From assembly GCF_017349295.1 (NCBI RefSeq), contig NZ_JAFMPK010000047.1, positions 124,001 through 188,000 on the forward strand: a stretch of DNA of 64,000 nt. The letters are read 5' to 3'. How positions within the stretch are numbered: the first letter of the stretch is position 1; each line of letters opens with the position of its first letter. The position numbers and the translations under genes are program-made. This document shows positions 54,323-64,000 of the stretch, piece after piece. The stretch comes from Myceligenerans salitolerans. GTDB lineage: Bacteria; Actinomycetota; Actinomycetes; Actinomycetales; Cellulomonadaceae. Below the pieces are notes generated by a model. The model saw only the letters and a list, made by a program, of their open reading frames with translations. It did not search any database and was not told the DNA's origin.

Positions 54323-54362
54323 GTAACCCCCGCAGGACCGGGCCCGGTCCTGCGGGGGTTAC
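54323..54362. terminator. 40-bp perfect palindrome ending the RiPP operon
   Basis: Arms 54323-54342 and 54343-54362 are perfectly complementary with no spacer (GTAACCCCCGCAGGACCGGG and its reverse complement). It begins 2 nt after the SagB-type gene's stop codon on the minus strand. In RNA it would fold into an 18-bp or longer GC-rich stem. It most likely terminates the RiPP operon and protects tatA from readthrough. Confidence 0.8.
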
Positions 54363-54364
54363 GG

Positions 54365-55633
54365 TCAGTGGTCACCGACGGCCCCGCCGGAAGGGGCGGT
54401 CCCGGTGACGGCGAAGTCGCCGGCGGGTACCTCCCGCCATCCGAGCCGGTCGGCGATGTGCTCACTCGGCCCGGCTCCCATGCCCCGGACCCGCAGACCC
54501 AGCGCCGCCCCCGCCAGATGAGCCGCTTCGAGGACTGCTCCGAACTCCGCCGTGACGAGACCCGACGCGAAGCCCTCGATCGGGTAGTTCGCGGCCACCA
54601 CGTCGAGCTCCGCGACAAGAGAGACCACAATCCTCGGAGCACGTGCCCACCCCATGCGCGCGGCCGCCCCACGAGCGCACCACCGCGCCCACGGCCCGTC
54701 CCCGAGCGTCCGGACGGCGTGGGCGTCCGGGTCGTACTCGTAGACACCGTCGGGCAGGCCCGACACGCCGGTGCAGCACGCCAGCGGCCGGAGGCTGTAC
54801 AGCGCACCCCCGCTCGGATAGGCGCGTGCCGTCGGTGAACAGCTCCGGCAGAACAGTGCGCAGAGCAGCCCGCCCAGGGCGTCACGCCCGAGGGGCAGCG
54901 CGGCCTCCTCCTCCCGAGCAGAACGTCGCGACCTGAGCGCCTCCAGGACTCCGAGCCGCGCCGAGTCGCAGTGCCCCAGCTCGTCGTGGTGCCCCGGGGG
55001 CCCGGTCCGCACCTGCTCGTCGCTCGTCACCGCGGCTCGCCGTGCGGCCGGGGGGCGCCTCGGTGCGGCGGGCACCCGCATGGGTGTCCGCGTGACATGG
55101 TGCGCGGCCCGTGCCGCGGTCGCCGCATCGGTGCGTGCCGGCAGCTCCGGCACGCGCACACCGCAGAACTCGGCCACCACGGCCAGCGTCGCGCGGGCGT
55201 CGCCGTCGCCGTCCAGGAGACGGGCGTACATGCCGGCCGGGCAGCGGATCTCCCACCCGGACACGAGGTCGACCATCGCGACGTCCTCGCCCCGGAGCAG
55301 CGCGGCGGTGGTCCCCGGGGCGAAGTGCTCGTGCGCCTCGTGCAGCGCGCGCGGAACTCCGGGCGTGACCCGTACCCGCGCCCGGTCGAACCTCAGCTCC
55401 GCGGTGCACCATCCCTGACGGACCAACGACCGGACGATGCTCGCCTCGCGGGAGGGTCTCGCCGGGTCGAGCACGTGCCCGGCCGCGAGCAGGCCGAGGA
55501 CGACCGTGCGTGGCACTCCCACACCCTGGCTGAACGGTCCCGCGGACATGCGCGCGAGCCCCGCGGCCGTCTCCCGGATCTCGACGCCCGCTCCCGGCCG
55601 TGCCGTGACGTGAACCGTCCCTAGGAGTTCCAC
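54365..55633 (-). CDS. SagB-type FMN azoline dehydrogenase
   Basis: This enzyme should oxidise thiazolines or oxazolines to thiazoles or oxazoles using FMN. The GTG at 55633 (VELLGTVHVTARPG) is chosen because GGGAG lies about 6 nt upstream and it overlaps the upstream stop. The N-terminal half has the accessory region seen in SagB/TbtE proteins. The C-terminal nitroreductase fold has RRSAREEEAALPLGRDAL, YPSGGALYSLRPLACC, DGVYEYDPDAHAVRTLGDGP and AEFGAVLEAAHLAGAALGLR. It is 422 residues and last in the operon. The missing tailoring partner genes do not affect this assignment. Confidence 0.88.
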   Translation of the reverse strand: MELLGTVHVTARPGAGVEIRETAAGLARMSAGPFSQGVGVPRTVVLGLLAAGHVLDPARPSREASIVRSLVRQGWCTAELRFDRARVRVTPGVPRALHEAHEHFAPGTTAALLRGEDVAMVDLVSGWEIRCPAGMYARLLDGDGDARATLAVVAEFCGVRVPELPARTDAATAARAAHHVTRTPMRVPAAPRRPPAARRAAVTSDEQVRTGPPGHHDELGHCDSARLGVLEALRSRRSAREEEAALPLGRDALGGLLCALFCRSCSPTARAYPSGGALYSLRPLACCTGVSGLPDGVYEYDPDAHAVRTLGDGPWARWCARGAAARMGWARAPRIVVSLVAELDVVAANYPIEGFASGLVTAEFGAVLEAAHLAGAALGLRVRGMGAGPSEHIADRLGWREVPAGDFAVTGTAPSGGAVGDH

Positions 55634-56613
55634 TGCCGCTCCCAGCAGGATTCCGGCCGCCCGCCCAGGCCCCGCTCGATCAGGTTGAACGCGACGTAGG
55701 CCGCACCGATACGGTCCGTGTACCCGACGCCCGTCTGGGACAGCAGCTGGTAGGCCACGTTGATCTCGAAGCGGAACTGCACCCAGGCGGCACTCCTGCG
55801 CCGTTCGGAGATCCACTCCTCGTCGAGCACCGTGGCACGGTGGATCTCGGCCGTGTCGCGCCACACGCCCGCTGACGCGGCCGGCCCGCCCAGGCCGGTG
55901 AACTCCCCCGCGGACAGTCCTCCCAGCCGTCGCATCAGGTCACGGTGCAGCACCAGAAGCTCCCCGACCACCCCGGCCCCGGCGTCCTCGTCCGCCTCCC
56001 CCACCGCCGTCCGGCGTCCGAACTCCTCCTCCCGGGCCGCCAGCACCCGCAGCATCTCGGCTCGGCGGGGGCCGGCCATGGTGAGGTATCCGGCGACGTG
56101 CGAGAGGAACGAGTCGTGGGCCCGGGCCGAGACGGGCAGGCGGTCGCTCATGAAACGGCGCAGGAACCTCACCGGGAAGACGAGCCGGTCACCCGGCCGC
56201 GTCCGACCCAGCACCCGCGCCAGACTGTCGCGCGAGTCCAGCGACCACTGCACGTAGACGCCGCGCACCCGAGGGCTCAGGCGGTCCAGGAAGGGGTCGT
56301 ACGAGGCGGCGACGTGCACGGAGCCACGATCCGGACATCGGGTCTCCAGGTCCCTCGGCGCTCGTTCCCGGGCGGGAACACGGCGCACGGCGCCGGACGA
56401 CGGCGCCACCCGCGCGGAGACGGACTCGATGTCCTGCCGGGACCACACCGACGAGAACAGGACCACCAGGTGCCATGCCGAGGAACCGTAGGCGATCCGG
56501 TAGTAGGACCGCCCGGCGCCCGGCCCGGCCGGCTCGAGCCGCGCCAGTGCGTCGTGGGCGCCGGCCCGGTCCACGTCGTGCACATGGACCGACCACGTGC
56601 TCAGCTGTGTCAT
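55621..56613 (-). CDS. Putative pyridine synthase (TclM/TbtD-like), divergent
   Basis: This 330-residue protein lies between the YcaO and SagB-type genes. Its C-terminus, FRFEINVAYQLLSQTGVGYT then AAYVAFNLIERGLG, resembles the N..Y..L...G......LL.A.N.VE tail of thiopeptide pyridine synthases. An N-terminal stretch SYYRIAYGSSAWHLVVLF fits the opening strand-turn-strand of the LanB-elimination-like fold. Length matches TclM/TbtD (about 290-350). I prefer the ATG at 56613 because AAGGGG lies about 6 nt upstream; an overlapping GTG at 56628 is possible. The assignment rests on pattern and context, not on catalytic residues I can confirm. Otherwise it is an unknown RiPP enzyme. Confidence 0.5.
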   Translation of the reverse strand: MTQLSTWSVHVHDVDRAGAHDALARLEPAGPGAGRSYYRIAYGSSAWHLVVLFSSVWSRQDIESVSARVAPSSGAVRRVPARERAPRDLETRCPDRGSVHVAASYDPFLDRLSPRVRGVYVQWSLDSRDSLARVLGRTRPGDRLVFPVRFLRRFMSDRLPVSARAHDSFLSHVAGYLTMAGPRRAEMLRVLAAREEEFGRRTAVGEADEDAGAGVVGELLVLHRDLMRRLGGLSAGEFTGLGGPAASAGVWRDTAEIHRATVLDEEWISERRRSAAWVQFRFEINVAYQLLSQTGVGYTDRIGAAYVAFNLIERGLGGRPESCWERQWNS

Positions 56614-56624
56614 GCCCCGCCCCT

Positions 56625-58313
56625 TCACGCGATCGGATGCGGGACCAGGGCCCGCTCACGCACGACCGTGTCGTCCCACTCGAAACCGTTCGTGACCGTC
56701 CAGCGCCGGATCTCCTCCAGGAAGGCGGTGACGCGGCGGTTCCGCCCGCCGAACGAGGGCGGCACCGTTCCCGGCACCAGGACCTTCGCGCATCGAAGGC
56801 CGACCGCCCGGTGCGTGCTGTTGGTGAGGTCGACGGCCAGCACCGTCCGCCCGGCACGCCGCTGCGCCTCGGTGAGCAGCCGGAACCGGTCGGCGCTCGC
56901 AGCCGGGGTCGCCCCCGGCACCGACCTGCCGGGTGGCGCGTCGAACCAGAAGTCCCACAACCGCCACAGGCCGGGGTTCCAGAAGTGGGTCTTGCCGTGG
57001 TCGGCGACGTCGACGACGTCGACCACCGGGTCGGCGTCGCGCCACCTGTCGCCGTCCCCGGCGGCGATCATTCCCGCACGGACTCCCACGAACTCGGAGA
57101 TGGCCTTCCTCAGCGCTCCGGCGACGCCCCAGCCGGCGGCACCTCCCAGGTTCGGCCGGCGCCCGAGCCCGTCCCGGCCGACGACGAGCACGCAGTCGAG
57201 ATGCGGCGTGTCACCGGGCACACGCATCGCCACCACGTCGTCCGCGTCCAGGTCGTGGCACAGCGCCCGCCAGTGCGACCACTCGTCCCGGGACAGCCAT
57301 CGGGCCGGGTCGAGCCGTTCCGGCGCACGGCCGCTGTACCAGCTCTTGAGGACGGCGTCGCGCTCGTACACCTCGGCCAGGCCGCGATGCATCGCGTCCT
57401 CCAGGTCGAGCCCGACGGACATCCCGTTCGAGCTTTCCACGAACAGCCTGCCCTGCCCGGTGTCGGCCCTCGGGTCCCCGTAGTAGACGAGCGAGGCGGG
57501 GACGTGGACCGACCGGCCCGTGCCGATCTCCGTGGCCTCGGCCACCCAGACGCGGGTCCCGGCCGTGGGCGCGACGCACGCGGTACCGTCCGGTTCCCCG
57601 TAGCTGTCGTACACGCCGAACGCCCGCGGGTCGGCCATGCGTTCGTCGCCGACGTCCAGGTGCGTCAGGCTGTCGTTCCGCGCCGGATGAACGCACGAGA
57701 TGCGCTCCAGCACCTCCAGCGCGGCCGTGCCGGCCGCGGCCCAGCCCTCGTGGCCGACGCCGGCGCCGTTCATCCCGTCGTCACGTCCACCGCTCAAGGT
57801 GGCGACGCACCGGTAGCCCGGCCCCCAGCGCTCGCCCTCGATCGTGGACACCAGCCCGACGTTCTCCGAGACGACGACGCGCAGCAGCGACCTGACGTAG
57901 TCCTCGCGCAGGGGTCCCGCGGCGGGGGCCAGGAGGCGGGGAGAGCCGTCGTCGTGCTTCGCGCAGCGTTCGCAGGTCGAGAGCGGAAGCGCGTACTCCA
58001 CCGCGAGATCCGCCCGGCCCGCGCGGGCGCGGACGATCAGGCCGCGCGCGAGAGCCGTCGCGACGCGCTCCGCGAGTCGCGGCAGCAGAGTCCGCGCGGT
58101 CCCGTGGAGCACGTCGCACGCGGGCACGCACGTGTGTCCCGCGCTGCGCTCGCCGTCGCGTCCGCGCACGCGCCGCCGTTCGTAGCACTCCGGGCAGCAG
58201 CTCGCGGGTCCTTCGCCGAGGAACCCGATCGCGACGCTGTCACCCTCGCAGACGAACCCCATCTGTCCCCGGAGGCCTTCGGGGACCCCGTCCGTGCGAA
58301 TCCTGTCCGTCAT
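56625..58313 (-). CDS. YcaO-type TOMM cyclodehydratase
   Basis: This ATP-dependent enzyme cyclises Cys (or Ser/Thr) into azolines. The 562-residue protein has an N-terminal 150-residue module with three Cys pairs (CCPEC near residue 40, a CVPAC near 61, CERC near 120), like the zinc site of ocin-ThiF partners. YcaO signatures are AALEVLERIS, NGMSVGLDLEDAMHRGLAEVYERDA (ATP/Mg residues) and a C-terminal PHPIA, a variant of the catalytic proline-rich tail. The ATG at 58313 overlaps the previous stop (ATGA). No separate ocin-ThiF gene is visible in the window. Confidence 0.88.
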   Translation of the reverse strand: MTDRIRTDGVPEGLRGQMGFVCEGDSVAIGFLGEGPASCCPECYERRRVRGRDGERSAGHTCVPACDVLHGTARTLLPRLAERVATALARGLIVRARAGRADLAVEYALPLSTCERCAKHDDGSPRLLAPAAGPLREDYVRSLLRVVVSENVGLVSTIEGERWGPGYRCVATLSGGRDDGMNGAGVGHEGWAAAGTAALEVLERISCVHPARNDSLTHLDVGDERMADPRAFGVYDSYGEPDGTACVAPTAGTRVWVAEATEIGTGRSVHVPASLVYYGDPRADTGQGRLFVESSNGMSVGLDLEDAMHRGLAEVYERDAVLKSWYSGRAPERLDPARWLSRDEWSHWRALCHDLDADDVVAMRVPGDTPHLDCVLVVGRDGLGRRPNLGGAAGWGVAGALRKAISEFVGVRAGMIAAGDGDRWRDADPVVDVVDVADHGKTHFWNPGLWRLWDFWFDAPPGRSVPGATPAASADRFRLLTEAQRRAGRTVLAVDLTNSTHRAVGLRCAKVLVPGTVPPSFGGRNRRVTAFLEEIRRWTVTNGFEWDDTVVRERALVPHPIA

Positions 58314-59206
58314 GGTCCTTGCCCTTCGATGTCGCGGCCGGCCGGGGAGGGTCGCCGATCGCGGGCGGATCGCGCGAGCCTCCACAGCCGTCGTTCCTGC
58401 TCGGGCACGATGCCCAACCGGTTGATCGACGTGTGGACCAGGTGGGGCCCGCAGCGCCGGGGTGTGTCCTGCCCGATCTCCCGCACCAGGCTCACGAGGT
58501 CCTCCGCGAGCCGCGGGCCGATACGGCGGCCCCATCGCCGCACGGAGATCGCGGTCGCGACGTCGGCCGCGATCCGGCCGGCGGCATCGGCCTGCAGCGG
58601 GTTCCAGTCACGGCCCAGGCGCGGTGGAGCCGCCGCCTCCGCGGCGGGCCGCCCGTCGGCACCGGGAGCCCGTCCGACCTCGAGGAGGGCGGTGACGAGG
58701 TGGAGCGCCGCCGCGAACCGCCAGCCGTCCGGCGCGTCCCGGCGGGTGCGCAGTTCGCGCGCGATCATCGCGCTCTGGCGGCAGAAGTACGCCTCGCACC
58801 GGTCCAAGACCTCACCGGTCCCGTACTTGTCCGTCTCGGCCGTGTACTCGGCCGGCTCGCACGTGTTGGGCCGCCTCAGCGTCTTGATCTCGCTCTCGGG
58901 CACGCCTTCCGCCTCGCCGAGCGGGCGGGTCCGCCGCGCGTACGCGTCGGGCGAGGGCCACGGCGATGCGGGTGCCGAGCGCAGGACGTCCCGGAGGGCG
59001 CGTTCCACCGACCGGAGCGCTTCGGCGCCGGGCGCTCGGTGGTCGCGGCCTCGGAGCCGGAGCCGTACGTGGGGTCCGCCGTTCCAGTGCCGGATGAAGA
59101 AGAATTCCACCTCGGGGTGCCGTTCGAGGGCTTCGCCCGACGCGGTGACCACCGCGTCGAGCTCCGTCGTGAAGACGTGCCGGCAGACCCAGCCCCGGGC
59201 GCTCAC
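58310..59206 (-). CDS. Thiopeptide-type LanB elimination domain (SpaB_C)
   Basis: This 298-residue protein is the C-terminal, glutamate-eliminating half of a split LanB dehydratase (TbtC-like). Visible features are FIRHWNGGPHVRLRLRGRDH, the RPNTCEPAEYTAETDKYG segment, HLVTALLEVGRAPGADG and the terminal LVHTSINRLGIVPEQERRLW. It forms Dha/Dhb from glutamylated Ser/Thr made by the upstream enzyme. The GTG overlaps the upstream stop (GTGA). Pyridine synthases share the same fold, so the exact activity cannot be fixed by sequence only, but the pairing with the 808-aa gene supports elimination. Confidence 0.85.
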   Translation of the reverse strand: MSARGWVCRHVFTTELDAVVTASGEALERHPEVEFFFIRHWNGGPHVRLRLRGRDHRAPGAEALRSVERALRDVLRSAPASPWPSPDAYARRTRPLGEAEGVPESEIKTLRRPNTCEPAEYTAETDKYGTGEVLDRCEAYFCRQSAMIARELRTRRDAPDGWRFAAALHLVTALLEVGRAPGADGRPAAEAAAPPRLGRDWNPLQADAAGRIAADVATAISVRRWGRRIGPRLAEDLVSLVREIGQDTPRRCGPHLVHTSINRLGIVPEQERRLWRLARSARDRRPSPAGRDIEGQGP

Positions 59207-61629
59207 AGGTCCACCACGTACTCGAGCGCGGGAGCGCCGGGGTCTGCGGGAAGGGCCTCCTGGAACAGGAGGTCGTCGTGCACGCCCCGCAGCCATCGTT
59301 CGAACACCACCAGGCTCAGCGGGACGTCGAGGTCCCAGTACTGCGGTTTGGACGTCCCCGCCAGCCACGTTCCCGTCGTGCTGCGGGGGATCAGGCGCAC
59401 GAACGACCGCGCCGGGATCTCGTGCCGCCGCAGGAACCGGATCATCCGTGCCGCGTACGCCGACCACTGCTCGGTACGGTCGCGGCGTGGTACGGCGGCG
59501 CCGTCCACGACCACGCCACGCCGCTCGACGACGACGTGGCCCGCGACGACGCGCGGTACCAGCACCGACTCGGCGTCGCCGGGGCGGAAGTAGCGGCCCA
59601 CGAGGTCCGCGATCCACGGCCGCGGCGCGGGCACGGTGTCCGAGACGAGCAGCATGAAGCGTTCGATCGCGGGCAGGTGCATCACGTGGATCGCCGAACC
59701 GGGTACGACGCGGACGGTCCGTGCGCTGGAGAGCTGGAACAGTTCGAGGCGGCCCGACGGGCCGCGGCGGATGCTCAGGTCACCGAGCGTGATCGAGGTG
59801 CCCTCCCGTTCGGGGAACGGGTTCGCGCCCGGTGTGGAGACGAGATGCCCGGCCAGCTGGTCGTGTCCGGCCACGCTCGCGAGATAGCGCGAGTTCAGTT
59901 CCGCGACGATGGTGCCGGCGTCCTGCCCGGCGCCACCGGTGGAGCCGGCCGAGCCGAGGGCGAGGGGCTGGAGCGTCCTGCCGGTGCGATGTGCGTGCCG
60001 TGCGGAGAGTCGCCCGTGGCCGGGGTAGAGGCCGTTGATCACGACCGTTGCGGACGGCCGGTCGACCTGGACGTAGGCCTCGGCTCCGGCCCGGCCGGCG
60101 GGTTCGGTCGGCAGGCGGTCCAGGTCGAGCACGATCTCGTGCGCCGTGCGGGAGAGCGTCGGTGTGTTCACGGGTCCGAGGCTGCGCAGGACGCTGTTGG
60201 GCAGCCAGGGCGCCGTGAGCGGCCCGGGGCCGAGGGCGTCGCGCACGGGGTCGTCGCCGCCGGCCGGCCGGCGCGCCTGGCTCAGCACCTCCTGCCATCC
60301 GGCCAGGAGCGGCCGGCCGCAGATCCGCTCGGCCAGGCCGGTCCGGGTCAGGACACGGTCGAGGTGCCTTCCGGGCCAGTACTCGCGGCCGGCGTCCAGG
60401 ATCTTCCGGAGCTGCCCTGCCGCGGTGCGCAGGACGTGCAGGTCGCGGGGGTCCACGGCCGAGGTACCGAACGCGTAGTGATGGCCCTTCGGGCCGGTCT
60501 CGCCGGGATCGATCCGGGGGCGCAGCTCGGTGCCGCCCGTGCGTCGTCCGGTGGCGGCCGGCTCGGAGGGGGGCGTGCGTACCGGCAACGACAGGTCGAT
60601 GCCCTCGGCGGACGCGGCCTCGTCGATCGGGACGAACGCCTCTCGGGACCCCTGCGGGCCGAGCACGGCACGGATGACGTCTCGTTCCCGGCCGGCGACC
60701 ACGACGATCTCCAGCAGCCCGGCACGCAGGAGCGACCGGGTTTCCTCGTGCGGGAGGTGCCGTCGCCGGCGCGCCCACGGTTCGGCGCGGTGGGCGGCAC
60801 AGTCGTCGAGGCAGTGTCGCGACGTGTCCCCCAGGGCGGCGGTCCTGAGCCGGTAGCCCTTCGGATCCAGGTAGAGCACGCGGCCGTCGACGACGGTGAT
60901 GGTGCTGTTGGGTGTCAGGATCACCGTCTCGGGGTGCTGTTCCATCAGCATCTCGGCGTTCCGGACGGCGAGGTTCGTGGCGAGCCATTCCGCACCGTGC
61001 TGCACGGGCGGCTCGAACCGGTGGAGGAGCTTGTCACCACGCTCGGCCGGGTGGTGCTCGTGCAGCGCCTCGGTGACCATGAGGAGCGAGATCGGACTGG
61101 TCTTGCGCGACGCCCTCATCGCGTAGTTGTAGAGAGCCGACAGCTTCTTGTCGATCGTCTCGCCGGCCCGGGGCGTCCGGATCGGCCGGCGGCGCAGCTC
61201 GCGGACGTAGTCCGGCGCGGTCGACGCCAGCGAGAACTGCAGGACGGCCGATTCGTCCAGCAGGTCCACCAGGTGCCGGGCGTCGGCGCCCAGGGCCGCG
61301 ACGATCTCGGTCTCGATCGTGCGGAGCGCCTGTTCGAAGTCGTCGTGCGCGGTGCCGATCTCACGTGCCAGGGCCGCCAGGTCCGACGGCGTGCCGGGTG
61401 AGGACGCGAGGTCCCTGATCCAGCGCAGCCGGCGCCGTCGCAGCGCACGGCGCAGCTTCAGGGCGGACCGTGCGGCGTCGTCGTTTCCGGCGACGCGCCG
61501 CTCGAGGATCGTGTCGATCCGCCTGACCGACCGCTCCAGTGCGTCCGTCGCCTCCCGGACGCCCGACAGGGACCCGCCGAACCTCGGCGGGGACAGCGCG
61601 GCCCTTCTGGCCGCGAGCAGATCTGGCAT
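59203..61629 (-). CDS. LanB-type tRNA-Glu-dependent Ser/Thr glutamylation protein
   Basis: This is the N-terminal glutamylation half of a split lantibiotic dehydratase, 808 residues. It uses glutamyl-tRNA to esterify Ser/Thr of the precursor. Visible signatures include YNYAMRASRKTSPISLLMVTE (the R..R.TPfG-like motif), NAEMLMEQHPETVILTPNST, ELNSRYLASVAGHDQLAGHL and the C-terminal FLRRHEIPARSFVRLIPRS. An N-terminal region should include the leader-binding domain typical of LanBs. The ATG at 61629 has GGGAGCG about 9 nt upstream. The order precursor-B-C is that of TbtABC-type clusters. Confidence 0.9.
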   Translation of the reverse strand: MPDLLAARRAALSPPRFGGSLSGVREATDALERSVRRIDTILERRVAGNDDAARSALKLRRALRRRRLRWIRDLASSPGTPSDLAALAREIGTAHDDFEQALRTIETEIVAALGADARHLVDLLDESAVLQFSLASTAPDYVRELRRRPIRTPRAGETIDKKLSALYNYAMRASRKTSPISLLMVTEALHEHHPAERGDKLLHRFEPPVQHGAEWLATNLAVRNAEMLMEQHPETVILTPNSTITVVDGRVLYLDPKGYRLRTAALGDTSRHCLDDCAAHRAEPWARRRRHLPHEETRSLLRAGLLEIVVVAGRERDVIRAVLGPQGSREAFVPIDEAASAEGIDLSLPVRTPPSEPAATGRRTGGTELRPRIDPGETGPKGHHYAFGTSAVDPRDLHVLRTAAGQLRKILDAGREYWPGRHLDRVLTRTGLAERICGRPLLAGWQEVLSQARRPAGGDDPVRDALGPGPLTAPWLPNSVLRSLGPVNTPTLSRTAHEIVLDLDRLPTEPAGRAGAEAYVQVDRPSATVVINGLYPGHGRLSARHAHRTGRTLQPLALGSAGSTGGAGQDAGTIVAELNSRYLASVAGHDQLAGHLVSTPGANPFPEREGTSITLGDLSIRRGPSGRLELFQLSSARTVRVVPGSAIHVMHLPAIERFMLLVSDTVPAPRPWIADLVGRYFRPGDAESVLVPRVVAGHVVVERRGVVVDGAAVPRRDRTEQWSAYAARMIRFLRRHEIPARSFVRLIPRSTTGTWLAGTSKPQYWDLDVPLSLVVFERWLRGVHDDLLFQEALPADPGAPALEYVVDL

Positions 61630-61665
61630 GTCATCGCTCCCGATGGTGTGCGCACGTGGCGGGCA

Positions 61666-61712
61666 GGCGGGCCCACCCTCCCGGCGAGCAGGTCTTCGCT
61701 GGCGGGCCCGCC
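61666..61712 (-). promoter_or_regulatory. Stem-loop between precursor and LanB genes
   Basis: GGCGGGCCC at 61666-61674 recurs within the palindrome GGCGGGCCCGCC at 61701-61712, and the two can pair over 9 bp. It lies in the 89-nt gap after the precursor stop. Such stems often limit readthrough so the precursor is made in excess of its enzymes. Confidence 0.45.
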
Positions 61713-61718
61713 CTTCCT

Positions 61719-61940
61719 CTACCAGCCGGTCGGGCCGCCGCCGGTGGGCTCGTAGCACGCACCGCTGCCACAGCCGCAGATGTTGCTGCTGGAGGTCACG
61801 TAGGTGGTGGCGACGGTTGATGCGCCGCCCTCGGCCACCTCGAACTCCATGCTGAGAGGCTCGAGTGCGAACGCGGCGTCGATCGCGTTGCCGCTCTCGA
61901 AGGCGTCGACCGCGTCGCCTTTCTGGAAGCTGTCGGACAT
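61719..61940 (-). CDS. RiPP precursor peptide, thiopeptide-like
   Basis: The 73-residue precursor has an acidic leader (residues 1-40, SDSFQKGDAVDAF ... LEPLSMEFEVAEGGA). The following region is rich in Ser/Thr/Cys/Gly: Ser41, Thr42, Thr45, Thr46, Thr49, Ser50-52, Cys55, Cys57, Ser59, Cys62. A Gly/Pro tail ends in Trp73. Cys55, Cys57 and Cys62 are thiazole candidates, and the Ser/Thr are dehydration candidates. Ser50 and Ser59, or Ser41 and Ser50, are nine residues apart, as are the two Ser of 26-membered thiopeptides. A strong GGAGGTGA precedes the ATG by 7 nt. The gene is first of the modification operon. Confidence 0.85.
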   Translation of the reverse strand: MSDSFQKGDAVDAFESGNAIDAAFALEPLSMEFEVAEGGASTVATTYVTSSSNICGCGSGACYEPTGGGPTGW

Positions 61941-62169
61941 TTCAGGTTCACCTCCACTCTTGTCGCGTCGGCAACCCGTGGCCGGTCGGCCACGTCGTCT
62001 CGCGTGGGCACGGTGTGCTCACCGGGACGAGTGCGGAGGGAGCCCGGGGTCCTGACGGGTTCCGGGCGACCTCCGCAGTGGTTGCGGGAGCAACATTCGC
62101 AGGAGCGGTGTGAGGGTTTCTTGGGTGGACCTTGAGCTCAGCGGGGCGGGCGGGGTGCGGGGGCCGTCC
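61941..62169 (-). promoter_or_regulatory. Leader/promoter region of the RiPP operon with two dyads
   Basis: The 229-nt gap between the regulator stop and the precursor start contains CGTGGCCG-GT-CGGCCACG (61977-61994), a perfect 8-bp dyad, and GTTGC-GGGA-GCAAC (62081-62094). Either may be a regulator site or mRNA leader stem. No -10/-35 pair is convincing. The strong ribosome binding site is at the 3' end. Confidence 0.5.
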
Positions 62170-64000
62170 TCACGGCGTCGCGCGAAGCCTGGCCTGTGTG
62201 GTCGTCACCCGGTCCGTGCGGTGCTGTGCACGGTAGAGCGCGAGGGCTGCCTTCCAGGCGGTGCGGGCGCTGTCGTGGTCGCCGAGAGCCGCATGGGCCT
62301 CGGCCAGGCCGCTGAGGGTGTTCGCCTCCTCGTACGTGTCCTTCATCGCCTGGTGCACCCGGAGTGCCTCGCGGTAGTGGTCGACGGCGGCGGCGTGGTC
62401 GCCGGCACGGGTGGCGACGTAGCCGAGGCTGTCCAGACTGGCCGCCTCGCCGGCCGTGTATCCCAGGGCACGCGAGGAGTCCAGGGCCGCCTGGCAGTGG
62501 TGGCGCGCCGTCGCGTACTGCCCGAACCGGGCCAGGCACCAGCCGAGGTTGTTCAGGGCCGCCGCTTCCCATTGCCGTTCCCCGGCGCTCCGGAAGAGTT
62601 CCAGTGCCCGCTGCGCGTGCTGCAGGGTCGCGTCCTCGTCCTGTGCGAGGAGCGAGGCGAGGGTGAGGACCTCGTGCGAGTGCGCCAGGTTGACGTGGTC
62701 GCCCGTCGCCTCGAAGTGGTGGACGGCGGCGGCGAGGTGGTCGAGCGGCTCCTGGCCGGGGCGCCCGGCCAGCAGCAGCGCGTAGGCCAGCCGGCGGCGC
62801 ATCAGCGCGGTCAGCGTGCCGGCGTCGGCGTCCCGCATCCTGGTCGCGGCGTCGAGCCCGGCGCGGCCGAGCCCGAGGAAGTCGTCGACGTGGCCGCAGC
62901 GCCGGAAGTACAGGTGGCCGTCCCAGCACAGCCGCCAGACTTCTCTGTGCAGTCCCCTGTCGGCGGCGAGGCGTACGGCGGCGGGGATCCAGGCTCGTTC
63001 GGTGGTGAACCACTCGAGCGCCGCGGCCTCGTCGGTCAGCGCAAGGGCATGCGGCTGGTGCCCGGGTGTGCCGGCCTCGGCGACCGACGAGGGCACCTCG
63101 TACGGTCCGAGGAGGCGATGGGCGACGGCGGAGGTCTGGACGTAGAAGCCGATGAGGTCGCGCAGGGCGTCGTGGCGCTCTGGGGCGGGGATCTCCGCCT
63201 GGGCACGCTCCCGTGCGTGCAGGCGCACCAGGTCGTGCAGTTCGTGCCTGCCGGGTGCGGGCTGGTGGACGAGGTGCGCCGATTCCAGTCGGCGCAGGAG
63301 CGCGCAGGTGCGGGCCACGGTGAGGCCGGCGAGGGCGGCTGTCGCCGGTAGGCCGATGTCCTGGCCGGGCGCGAGGCTGAGCAGCCCGAGCAGCCGTGCC
63401 GCGGCCGCGGGCAGTGCCTGGTGCGAGGCGTCCAGCACGCTGCGCAGTGAGGTGTCCAGCTCGCCGGTGTCCAGGGCGTCGAGTCTGGTCTCTCCCTCCA
63501 GGAGCCTGGACGCGATCGTGGACAGGGGCAGGTGCGGGCTACCGGCTGCTCCTGCCGCGGCGATGGCCAGCGCCAGGGGCAGCCGGCCGCAACCGGTGAC
63601 GATGGCTTCGACCGCGTGCGGCTCTGCCGCGGTCCGGTCCTCCCCGAGGCGGGCGGCGAGCAGTTGGCGTGCGTCGGCCGAGGTGAGCGGGCCCAGGGTG
63701 AGGGACTGGGCTCCTTCGGTGGCCACGAGCCCGCTGAGCCGGTCGCGGCTGGTGATCAGTACGACGCAGGAGGAGTCCCCGGGCATGAGGGGGCGTACCT
63801 GCTCGGCGTCGCGCGCGTTGTCCAGCAGGAGGAGCATCCGTTTGCCGGCGAGGAGGCTGCGGTACAGGCCGGCCTGCGCCTCGGCGCTGGTGGGGATGGC
63901 CTTGGCGTCCATCCCGAGGGCGATGAGGAAGTCGTGGACGACGGTCCGCGGGCTCGCGGCCGGCGTGCTCGGAGAGAATCCGTGCAGGTTGACGTAGAGC
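62170..64000 (-). CDS. SARP/AfsR-like regulator with NB-ARC and TPR domains (5' end outside window)
   Basis: The frame is open to the right edge, so the N-terminal DNA-binding/BTAD part is missing. The visible part begins LYVNLHGFSPSTPAASPRT and has NB-ARC features: RMLLLLDNARDAEQVRPL (kinase-2-like), VVLITSRDRLSGL (RNBS-B-like) and GCGRLPLALAIAAAGAAG (GLPL-like). The C-terminal half is a TPR array with at least four repeats (AAALNNLGWCLARFGQYATA, AASLDSLGYVATRAGDHAAA, ANTLSGLAEAHAALGDHDSA). AfsR/SARP proteins activate antibiotic gene clusters, and this gene lies immediately upstream of the precursor on the same strand. Confidence 0.85.
   Translation of the reverse strand, partial: LYVNLHGFSPSTPAASPRTVVHDFLIALGMDAKAIPTSAEAQAGLYRSLLAGKRMLLLLDNARDAEQVRPLMPGDSSCVVLITSRDRLSGLVATEGAQSLTLGPLTSADARQLLAARLGEDRTAAEPHAVEAIVTGCGRLPLALAIAAAGAAGSPHLPLSTIASRLLEGETRLDALDTGELDTSLRSVLDASHQALPAAAARLLGLLSLAPGQDIGLPATAALAGLTVARTCALLRRLESAHLVHQPAPGRHELHDLVRLHARERAQAEIPAPERHDALRDLIGFYVQTSAVAHRLLGPYEVPSSVAEAGTPGHQPHALALTDEAAALEWFTTERAWIPAAVRLAADRGLHREVWRLCWDGHLYFRRCGHVDDFLGLGRAGLDAATRMRDADAGTLTALMRRRLAYALLLAGRPGQEPLDHLAAAVHHFEATGDHVNLAHSHEVLTLASLLAQDEDATLQHAQRALELFRSAGERQWEAAALNNLGWCLARFGQYATARHHCQAALDSSRALGYTAGEAASLDSLGYVATRAGDHAAAVDHYREALRVHQAMKDTYEEANTLSGLAEAHAALGDHDSARTAWKAALALYRAQHRTDRVTTTQARLRATP

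Follow-up and report, generated by a model that had tools for sequence, protein, structure and literature searches.

Thiopeptides block translation in bacteria, and their discovery and engineering are guided by the small number of pathways that have been worked out. The described systems closest to the locus analysed here are the pbt and tbt clusters (GE2270/thiomuracin-type), the lactazole cluster (laz) and the pyritide cluster (mro). The first of these have in common with it a split LanB, a YcaO, a SagB and a TbtD/PbtD-type pyridine synthase. We find that the locus, part of a 64,000-nucleotide stretch of Myceligenerans salitolerans DNA (the window), is probably a divergent thiopeptide-type (pyridine-macrocycle) RiPP cassette. 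Judged from its sequence, it appears to be a divergent member of a kind already known and not a new class. What is new is its clean insertion, a cassette without an F protein, its divergent enzymes and its predicted 33-residue core.

The cassette covers 10.8 kb (54338–65161) in an otherwise ordinary actinobacterial chromosome stretch, with its right end beyond the window, which stops at 64000. All seven genes named in the initial annotation are present in one minus-strand run, open and with no internal stops: a SARP/NB-ARC/TPR regulator, a 73-aa precursor, a LanB-type glutamylation protein (LanB-Glu), a LanB eliminase, a YcaO, a pyridine-synthase-like protein and a SagB. Their GC content at third positions is 0.86–0.91, and their start codons are our choice. 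The tight packing described earlier holds for the last five genes, LanB-Glu to SagB, which overlap by 4, 4, 4 and 13 nt, but not for neighbours said to lie within 12 nt, as the only positive gaps are 89 nt (precursor to LanB-Glu) and 229 nt (SARP to precursor). The cluster had also been called complete-looking. Its gene set agrees with this, but its completeness does not, as the cassette contains no F-protein/LazD homologue and no transporter and runs on to ~65161. No resistance gene, transposase or integrase was found among the cassette genes.

The borders were set by blastn to a locus of a same-genus genome (L134 of G165), in which the flanking blocks stop at 54337 (L134:9917) and restart at 65162 (L134:9910). 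The site is empty in that genome, with both flanks joining within ~6 bp, and we call the insertion (54338..64000, continuing to 65161 outside the window; no strand assigned) from this empty site and from nothing else. The insertion point adjoins tatA and has clean edges, with no target-site duplication seen by eye, and the cassette was probably gained as one block. Its codon use gave no sign of foreign origin: values for the six larger genes stay inside the range of neighbouring genes, and the precursor, at 73 codons, is too short for such a comparison. After the last gene lies a perfect 40-bp palindrome (54323..54362, no strand assigned) with 20-nt arms, 100% complementary, and zero spacer, in agreement with the operon end first proposed. 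The 71 bases spanning it fold as RNA at −46.5 kcal/mol, and no T-run terminator was found there; the palindrome is probably a hairpin terminator without a T-run. Because the empty-site match reaches 54337, approximately its first 15 bases sit in the old flank.

The enzymes expected of a thiopeptide cluster are recognizable at different strengths. For the split LanB, the 808-aa LanB-Glu (59203..61629, minus strand; a glutamyl-tRNA-dependent glutamylation protein) has no match in Pfam or NCBIfam and resembles TbtB (6ec7; phmmer E 3.2e-15), and the 298-aa glutamate eliminase (58310..59206, minus strand, GTG start) matches PF14028 (1.4e-24) and TIGR03891 (1.1e-16, 61.6 bits, above the cut-off). 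The YcaO cyclodehydratase (562 aa, 56625..58313, minus strand) matches PF02624 at 2e-41 and aligns to LazE-type proteins. The SagB-type azoline dehydrogenase (422 aa, 54365..55633, minus strand, GTG start) matches TIGR03605 at 5.6e-15, under the curated cut-off, with a single SagB-domain match at 268–398.

The [4+2] pyridine synthase, or macrocyclase, is a divergent assignment (335 aa, 55621..56628, minus strand, GTG start), drawn from NF045556, alignment and predicted fold. It matches NF045556 at 2.7e-9, its 36.7 bits falling far short of the curated cut-off of 325, has no match in Pfam, and shares 17–20% identity with 11 relatives. In the alignment it retains S-F-x-S-H, N290-x-x-Y293 and R306, with PbtD Y293F mapping for the tyrosine. 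Its sole phmmer match to a pyridine synthase is L041 of Nonomuraea turkmeniaca, itself a TbtD/PbtD relative. A PDB search with the protein alone returned one weak, irrelevant match, and the structural link came through its relatives and a model. That model was built from an alignment of pyridine synthases, and its residues 1–110 are unreliable (pLDDT below 50). Foldseek and VIA comparisons likened the protein to pyridine synthases, not eliminases, although Foldseek gave only weak E-values, the best being 0.0096 and none reaching 0.001. An eliminase profile gave no match, and with pyridine-synthase profiles the window eliminase (32.9 and 17.0 bits) outscores the window pyridine synthase.

Given this high divergence and the loss of the G-P-H in its relatives' R-H-W-x-x-G-P-H stretch, the 335-aa protein could be a decayed or repurposed LanB-C relative, and the product a linear, goadsporin-like azole/dehydroamino-acid peptide made with no macrocyclisation. 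Loci with laz-type genes and an undetectable pyridine synthase do occur (7 of the 80 fetched, these being the best 80 of 97 relatives). Yet we consider a linear product improbable, as the protein is likened to pyridine synthases, keeps the N-x-x-Y tyrosine and is encoded by a gene that overlaps its neighbours in the operon. Goadsporin-like clusters have no pyridine synthase, where this one has a predicted one, and a linear product needs a leader protease, which none of the seven genes resembles. The thiopeptide/TOMM reading of the initial annotation is supported by family profiles, by the resemblance to TbtB and by a predicted fold of the pyridine-synthase type that keeps the conserved Tyr.

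The precursor peptide (73 aa, 61719..61940, minus strand), recognized from its sequence, has a predicted leader of residues 1–40 ending in EGGA and a predicted core starting at Ser41: STVATTYVTSSSNICGCGSGACYEPTGGGPTGW. An E-x-x-A-S leader/core signature occurs in 11 of 12 aligned relatives, and EGGAS41 fits it, which gives a core of 33 residues and places Ser1 at the border, as in a thiopeptide precursor. The second Ser that a pyridine requires is available at 50–52 and at 59, the residue just before Ser59 being Gly, which is not azole-forming. The core Cys are C55, C57 and C62, and the leader has no Lx4F motif. From the sequence, the ring partner may be core Ser12 (or 10/11), which would give a 26–32-membered ring with a long Cys-containing tail, or core Ser19, which would give a 53-membered ring. 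A small ring between Ser50 and Ser59 (26-membered, leader 1–49) is possible but disfavoured, as Thr49 mismatches the Ala before Ser1.

In the proposed pathway, the SARP regulator (943 aa, 62170..65001, of which 62170..64000 is within the window; minus strand; Trans_reg_C, BTAD, NB-ARC and TPR domains; gene start at 65001, outside the window) would turn on a single transcript. The split LanB pair would turn Ser/Thr into dehydroamino acids, and YcaO and SagB would make azoles of the three Cys in the core and possibly of some Ser/Thr residues. The pyridine synthase would then couple a second dehydroalanine with the one formed at Ser41 (core position 1), and residues 1–40 would be expelled as a carboxamide.

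Leader binding departs from the usual pattern. The YcaO carries a fused, truncated E1-like N-terminal part with the Cys pairs CPEC and CERC, and its alignment to LazE-type proteins, read with PMC4603692, indicates a truncated form dependent on an F-protein partner. The cassette encodes no TbtF/LazD-type leader-binding F protein and has no intergenic gap large enough for one. A profile of six F proteins found no match in the window plus 32 kb; among five known proteins it detected the L150, L149 and L040 F proteins and the L032 LazD and missed the L039 LazD. Run against the whole genome (G000), this profile again found no match; it matched in G572 but also missed the F protein of G050/G070. A genome search with the L058 F protein found nothing in G000, nor in G050/G070 despite an F-like protein readable in L150. 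The best TIGR03882 match in G000 (26.3 bits) contains a stop and falls under the cut-off, and the same model matches in 11 of 14 control genomes. A distant F gene could still lie elsewhere in G000. Within the cassette proteins, LazD-RRE profiles gave no match. The ~220 N-terminal residues of SagB match no family profile; comparing the F-protein RRE profile with a profile of this region gave E 0.016 and a probability of only 2.8%, and the SagB structure model (mean pLDDT 48.9) was too poor for a structure search.

With an F-dependent YcaO, no F protein found and no Lx4F in the leader, the cluster could be defective, its F protein lost and its YcaO inactive, making nothing or an azole-free pyritide. 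We doubt this, as all seven reading frames are open, those of the five enzymes overlap and the six larger genes have codon use within the range of their neighbours. Moreover, PMC4603692 gives 85% as the share of fused-YcaO thiopeptide clusters with a leader-binding F protein, so some lack one. For a functional thiopeptide-type pathway, leader binding would have to proceed without a separate cassette F protein, perhaps via a domain inside one enzyme. More specifically, and only as a tentative proposal, recognition would sit inside an enzyme such as the SagB N-terminus, Lx4F would have been lost in parallel, and the 33-residue core would yield either a ~53-atom ring or a Cys-free 26–32-atom ring with a 21–23-residue, three-Cys tail. 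A five-enzyme operon with a natural core of this length and no separate leader-binding protein would be a useful test of substrate recognition by such enzymes.

The earlier suggestion that the precursor and product may be undescribed fits our searches, which found no close relative in YcaO scans of 84,980 species, among 221 family genomes screened with the pyridine synthase or among 396 from the order screened with the YcaO; the species collection may omit the window's own genome or very near records. A YcaO pattern scan of that collection gave 27 stretches, none confirmed, and a scan with a three-sequence alignment and two patterns gave 172 stretches and 97 relatives, the best 80 of which have 25–34% identity in the best segment. 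In the loci of these best 80, tblastn at E 1e-3 found no relative of the window pyridine synthase. Plasmid matches (24 records) were all <60% identical, none with 80% query coverage, and cassette enzymes are mostly 17–36% identical to their best matches. One of 220 other family genomes gave a pyridine-synthase match, a 74-aa stretch on a 6.6-kb contig without other cluster genes, which we attribute to chance. Across 395 other genomes of a phylum sample, the two pyridine-synthase matches had internal stops, and the two LanB-Glu matches covered only the C-terminal quarter, at loci without a clear pyridine synthase. The family search also missed G050/G070, though loci there match a pyridine synthase, which suggests that mining genomes by this divergent enzyme may miss similar ones.

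Compared with pbt/tbt, the cassette shares E-x-x-A before Ser1 with L041 and L149, but lacks a TbtF homologue and Lx4F and has a 33-residue core with three spaced Cys. Two genomes of the same bacterial family carry a GE37468-like cluster (L149/L150) with the same gene kinds and a YcaO that is 29% identical (497 columns). There the YcaO gene follows that of the pyridine synthase, where in the cassette it comes first. The GE37468-like cluster also differs in its core (STNCFCYPCCSCSAPSSSA), intact Lx4F leader and chromosomal site, and L150 has an F-like protein where the cassette has none. As in the pyritide pathway (mro; PMC9247985), one candidate pyridine Ser of the cassette precursor follows a residue that cannot become an azole, and the leader would be expelled as an amide. 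By contrast, mro lacks both genes for azole formation and Cys in its precursors, where the cassette has YcaO, SagB and C55, C57 and C62. Finally, the cassette and laz are both compact, lack tailoring genes and have EGGA before Ser1, and three Ser at core positions 10–12 recall lactazole (PMC7210931). The cassette YcaO has a remnant E1 N-terminus and is 28–30% identical to LazE-type proteins. However, the LazD homologue and fused LazF that mark the lactazole family are absent, eliminase and SagB being separate; core position 13 is not Cys; and the tail would be longer if the ring closes at Ser10–12. PMC7210931 also describes an artificial 34-residue lactazole substrate accepted by Laz enzymes, of which the 33-residue core would be a natural counterpart.

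The stretch (bases 124001-188000 of a 1,004,405-base contig in a 4.58-Mb genome) carries the minus-strand run described in the initial annotation: a SARP regulator, a precursor, a split LanB, a YcaO, a pyridine synthase and a SagB, seven open genes in all, with no internal stops in 7/7. In transcription order, with start codons that we picked from overlaps and frames, these are the SARP regulator (65001-62170), the precursor (61940-61719), the glutamylation protein LanB-Glu (61629-59203), the eliminase (59206-58310), the YcaO (58313-56625), the pyridine synthase (56628-55621) and the SagB (55633-54365). Their third-position GC is 0.86-0.91. The tight packing claimed for the downstream genes held up, the last four junctions overlapping by 4, 4, 4 and 13 nt, as did the perfect palindrome claimed at the operon end, which lies downstream of SagB and spans 40 bp with zero spacer. 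The 71 bases surrounding it have an RNA folding energy of -46.5 kcal/mol, and a search for a T-run terminator found none.

These genes sit between tatA, tatC and a DSHCT helicase gene on the left and a small gene (65166-65561) followed by two WYL-domain genes, the first PafC-like, on the right. When aligned to G165, a genome of the same genus, the left flank ends at window position 54337 and the right flank starts at 65162, the ends lying ~6 bases apart in G165. Because these flanks nearly meet where the cassette sits, 54338-65161 (10.8 kb, all seven genes) is, judged from the alignment, an insertion, or else a loss in G165. In G164, also of this genus, the corresponding gap is filled by a different ~1.2-kb stretch (L135:8591-9815), and the tatA-pafC junction is therefore variable. 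Inspection of the cassette edges by eye revealed no target-site duplication. In a third congener, G163, the helicase match was divided across contig ends. Translations read from fetched locus L003:10055-13444 (window-scale 73055-76444) resemble ectD, ectC, ectB and ectA of ectoine synthesis.

The proposed thiopeptide/TOMM-type assignment is supported by profiles, one catalytic residue and a predicted fold that is not independent of these. The YcaO, the only one in its genome by Pfam profile, matched PF02624 (2e-41), and its N-terminus aligns with what remains of an E1-like part in two lactazole-type YcaO proteins; the Cys pairs match, and overall identity is 28-30%. The eliminase matched PF14028 (1.4e-24) and exceeded the TIGR03891 cut-off. 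LanB-Glu had zero Pfam or NCBIfam matches; in phmmer it matched 6ec7 (3.2e-15, the strongest stretch being 560-845 in the longer reading frame), titled lantibiotic dehydratase domain protein, which we take to be TbtB of the thiomuracin pathway. SagB matched TIGR03605 at 5.6e-15, below the curated cut-off, in a single stretch, vs. two stretches each in SagB from three other clusters (L044, L055, L049). SagB proteins of several thiopeptide clusters (L058:6173-7546, L040:7153-8421, L150:5123-6523) have a common N-terminal region ahead of the dehydrogenase domain, to which the N-terminus of the window SagB seems similar.

In actinobacterial thiopeptides, the leader's Lx4F (Leu -29 and Phe -24 in TbtA) is reported to be bound by the leader-recognition domain (RRE) of the TbtF/LazD-type F protein (PMC12710340). 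Heterocycloanthracin-type fused cyclodehydratases are described as lacking the recognition part and needing an F protein, which 85% of the thiopeptide clusters that group with these enzymes carry (PMC4603692). The cassette YcaO is a truncated fused form, and the cassette has no F gene, because every gap (229, 89 and ~160 nt) is too small to hold one. A profile built from six F proteins recovered 4/5 positive controls (the L150, L149 and L040 F proteins and L032 LazD, missing L039 LazD) and found no F protein across the window and a further 32 kb, where the top score was 5.6 bits. A genome-wide search found none in the window's own genome, though it also missed the F protein of G050/G070, two genomes of the same family. 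By inspection, the window leader has no Lx4F; its Phe14 aligns with the Phe of the L149 and L058 leaders, but the Leu five residues earlier is missing. Foldseek E-values were weak, and the window eliminase outscores the window pyridine synthase on pyridine-synthase profiles. These results and the missed L039 control leave our confidence unchanged, because the two main claims rest on the pyridine-synthase profile match and on the sizes of the gaps.

Lactazole LazD matches also occurred in seven of 80 loci (L060, L063, L078, L081, L083, L090, L110) whose fetched stretches show no pyridine synthase, and likewise in L052 and L094, but on short contigs. Such loci may make linear products. The L039 precursor is Ser-rich (STYSLSSSSSTSCQGCSGCSVQPPLQLDTA), and its cluster is apparently the same as that of L081. 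Three loci of the same class (L012, L013, L035) each have two YcaO genes and a split LanB; the L012 precursor reads STSCSSTSTCSSTTST... and that of L013 STSSSSTSTCSSTTSTTSCSA, and the pyridine-synthase profile gave only eliminase-level scores on both loci.

The window precursor reads MSDSFQKGDAVDAFESGNAIDAAFALEPLSMEFEVAEGGASTVATTYVTSSSNICGCGSGACYEPTGGGPTGW. Among 12 hand-picked precursors from related loci (one per locus, leaving out second and third precursors of some), 11 carry E-x-x-A-S at the leader/core border, L039 being the exception; outside the alignment, the third precursor of L062 is without it. The window has EGGAS at Ser41, the exact motif of the lactazole-type L043 precursor. Lactazole's pyridine is reported to form from Ser1 and Ser12 (PMC7210931). 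Because EGGAS fits both the relatives' border motif and lactazole Ser1, we predict a 33-residue core, STVATTYVTSSSNICGCGSGACYEPTGGGPTGW. Assuming 3 ring atoms per residue, calibrated on lactazole (Ser1-Ser12, reported as 32-membered) and pyritides (Ser1-Ser6/7, 14 and 17 atoms; PMC9247985), closure at core Ser10, 11, 12 or 19 would give 26, 29, 32 or 53 atoms. By analogy, Ser12 is a possible second pyridine Ser: lactazole has the same Ser triplet at 10-12, and its S10A, S11A and S12A variants are each reported to give no product (PMC7210931). Ser19 is another possible candidate, as the ensuing C-Y-E-P is like C-A-Q-P in L043 and C-Q-A-P in L115; the Cys residues clustering nearby count in its favor, and the Gly directly preceding it, not an azole precursor, counts against it.

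The searches turned up no close relative. Pyridine-synthase searching yielded a short, chance-like match in 1/220 other family genomes; it missed G050/G070, whose loci match lactazole-type pyridine synthase, and its empty answers therefore understate distant relatives. YcaO matches occurred in 31/396 genomes of the order (own included), the best others being G050 and G070 (86 bits), and in a genome-contig collection the best 80 of 97 YcaO relatives were 25-34% identical in their best segment. LanB-Glu had 33-35% identity over its C-terminal part in 2/395 other phylum genomes. Overall, a divergent variant of a thiopeptide-type cluster is supported, and putative new chemistry is possible. G070 (L149:9400-19343) and G050 (L150:164-10052) hold a thiomuracin/GE37468-like thiopeptide cluster near genes reading like rpsR, rplI and dnaB. 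The window cassette differs from that cluster, which is GE37468-like with precursor core STNCFCYPCCSCSAPSSSA, compared here with the GE37468 core STNCFCYPCCSCSS.
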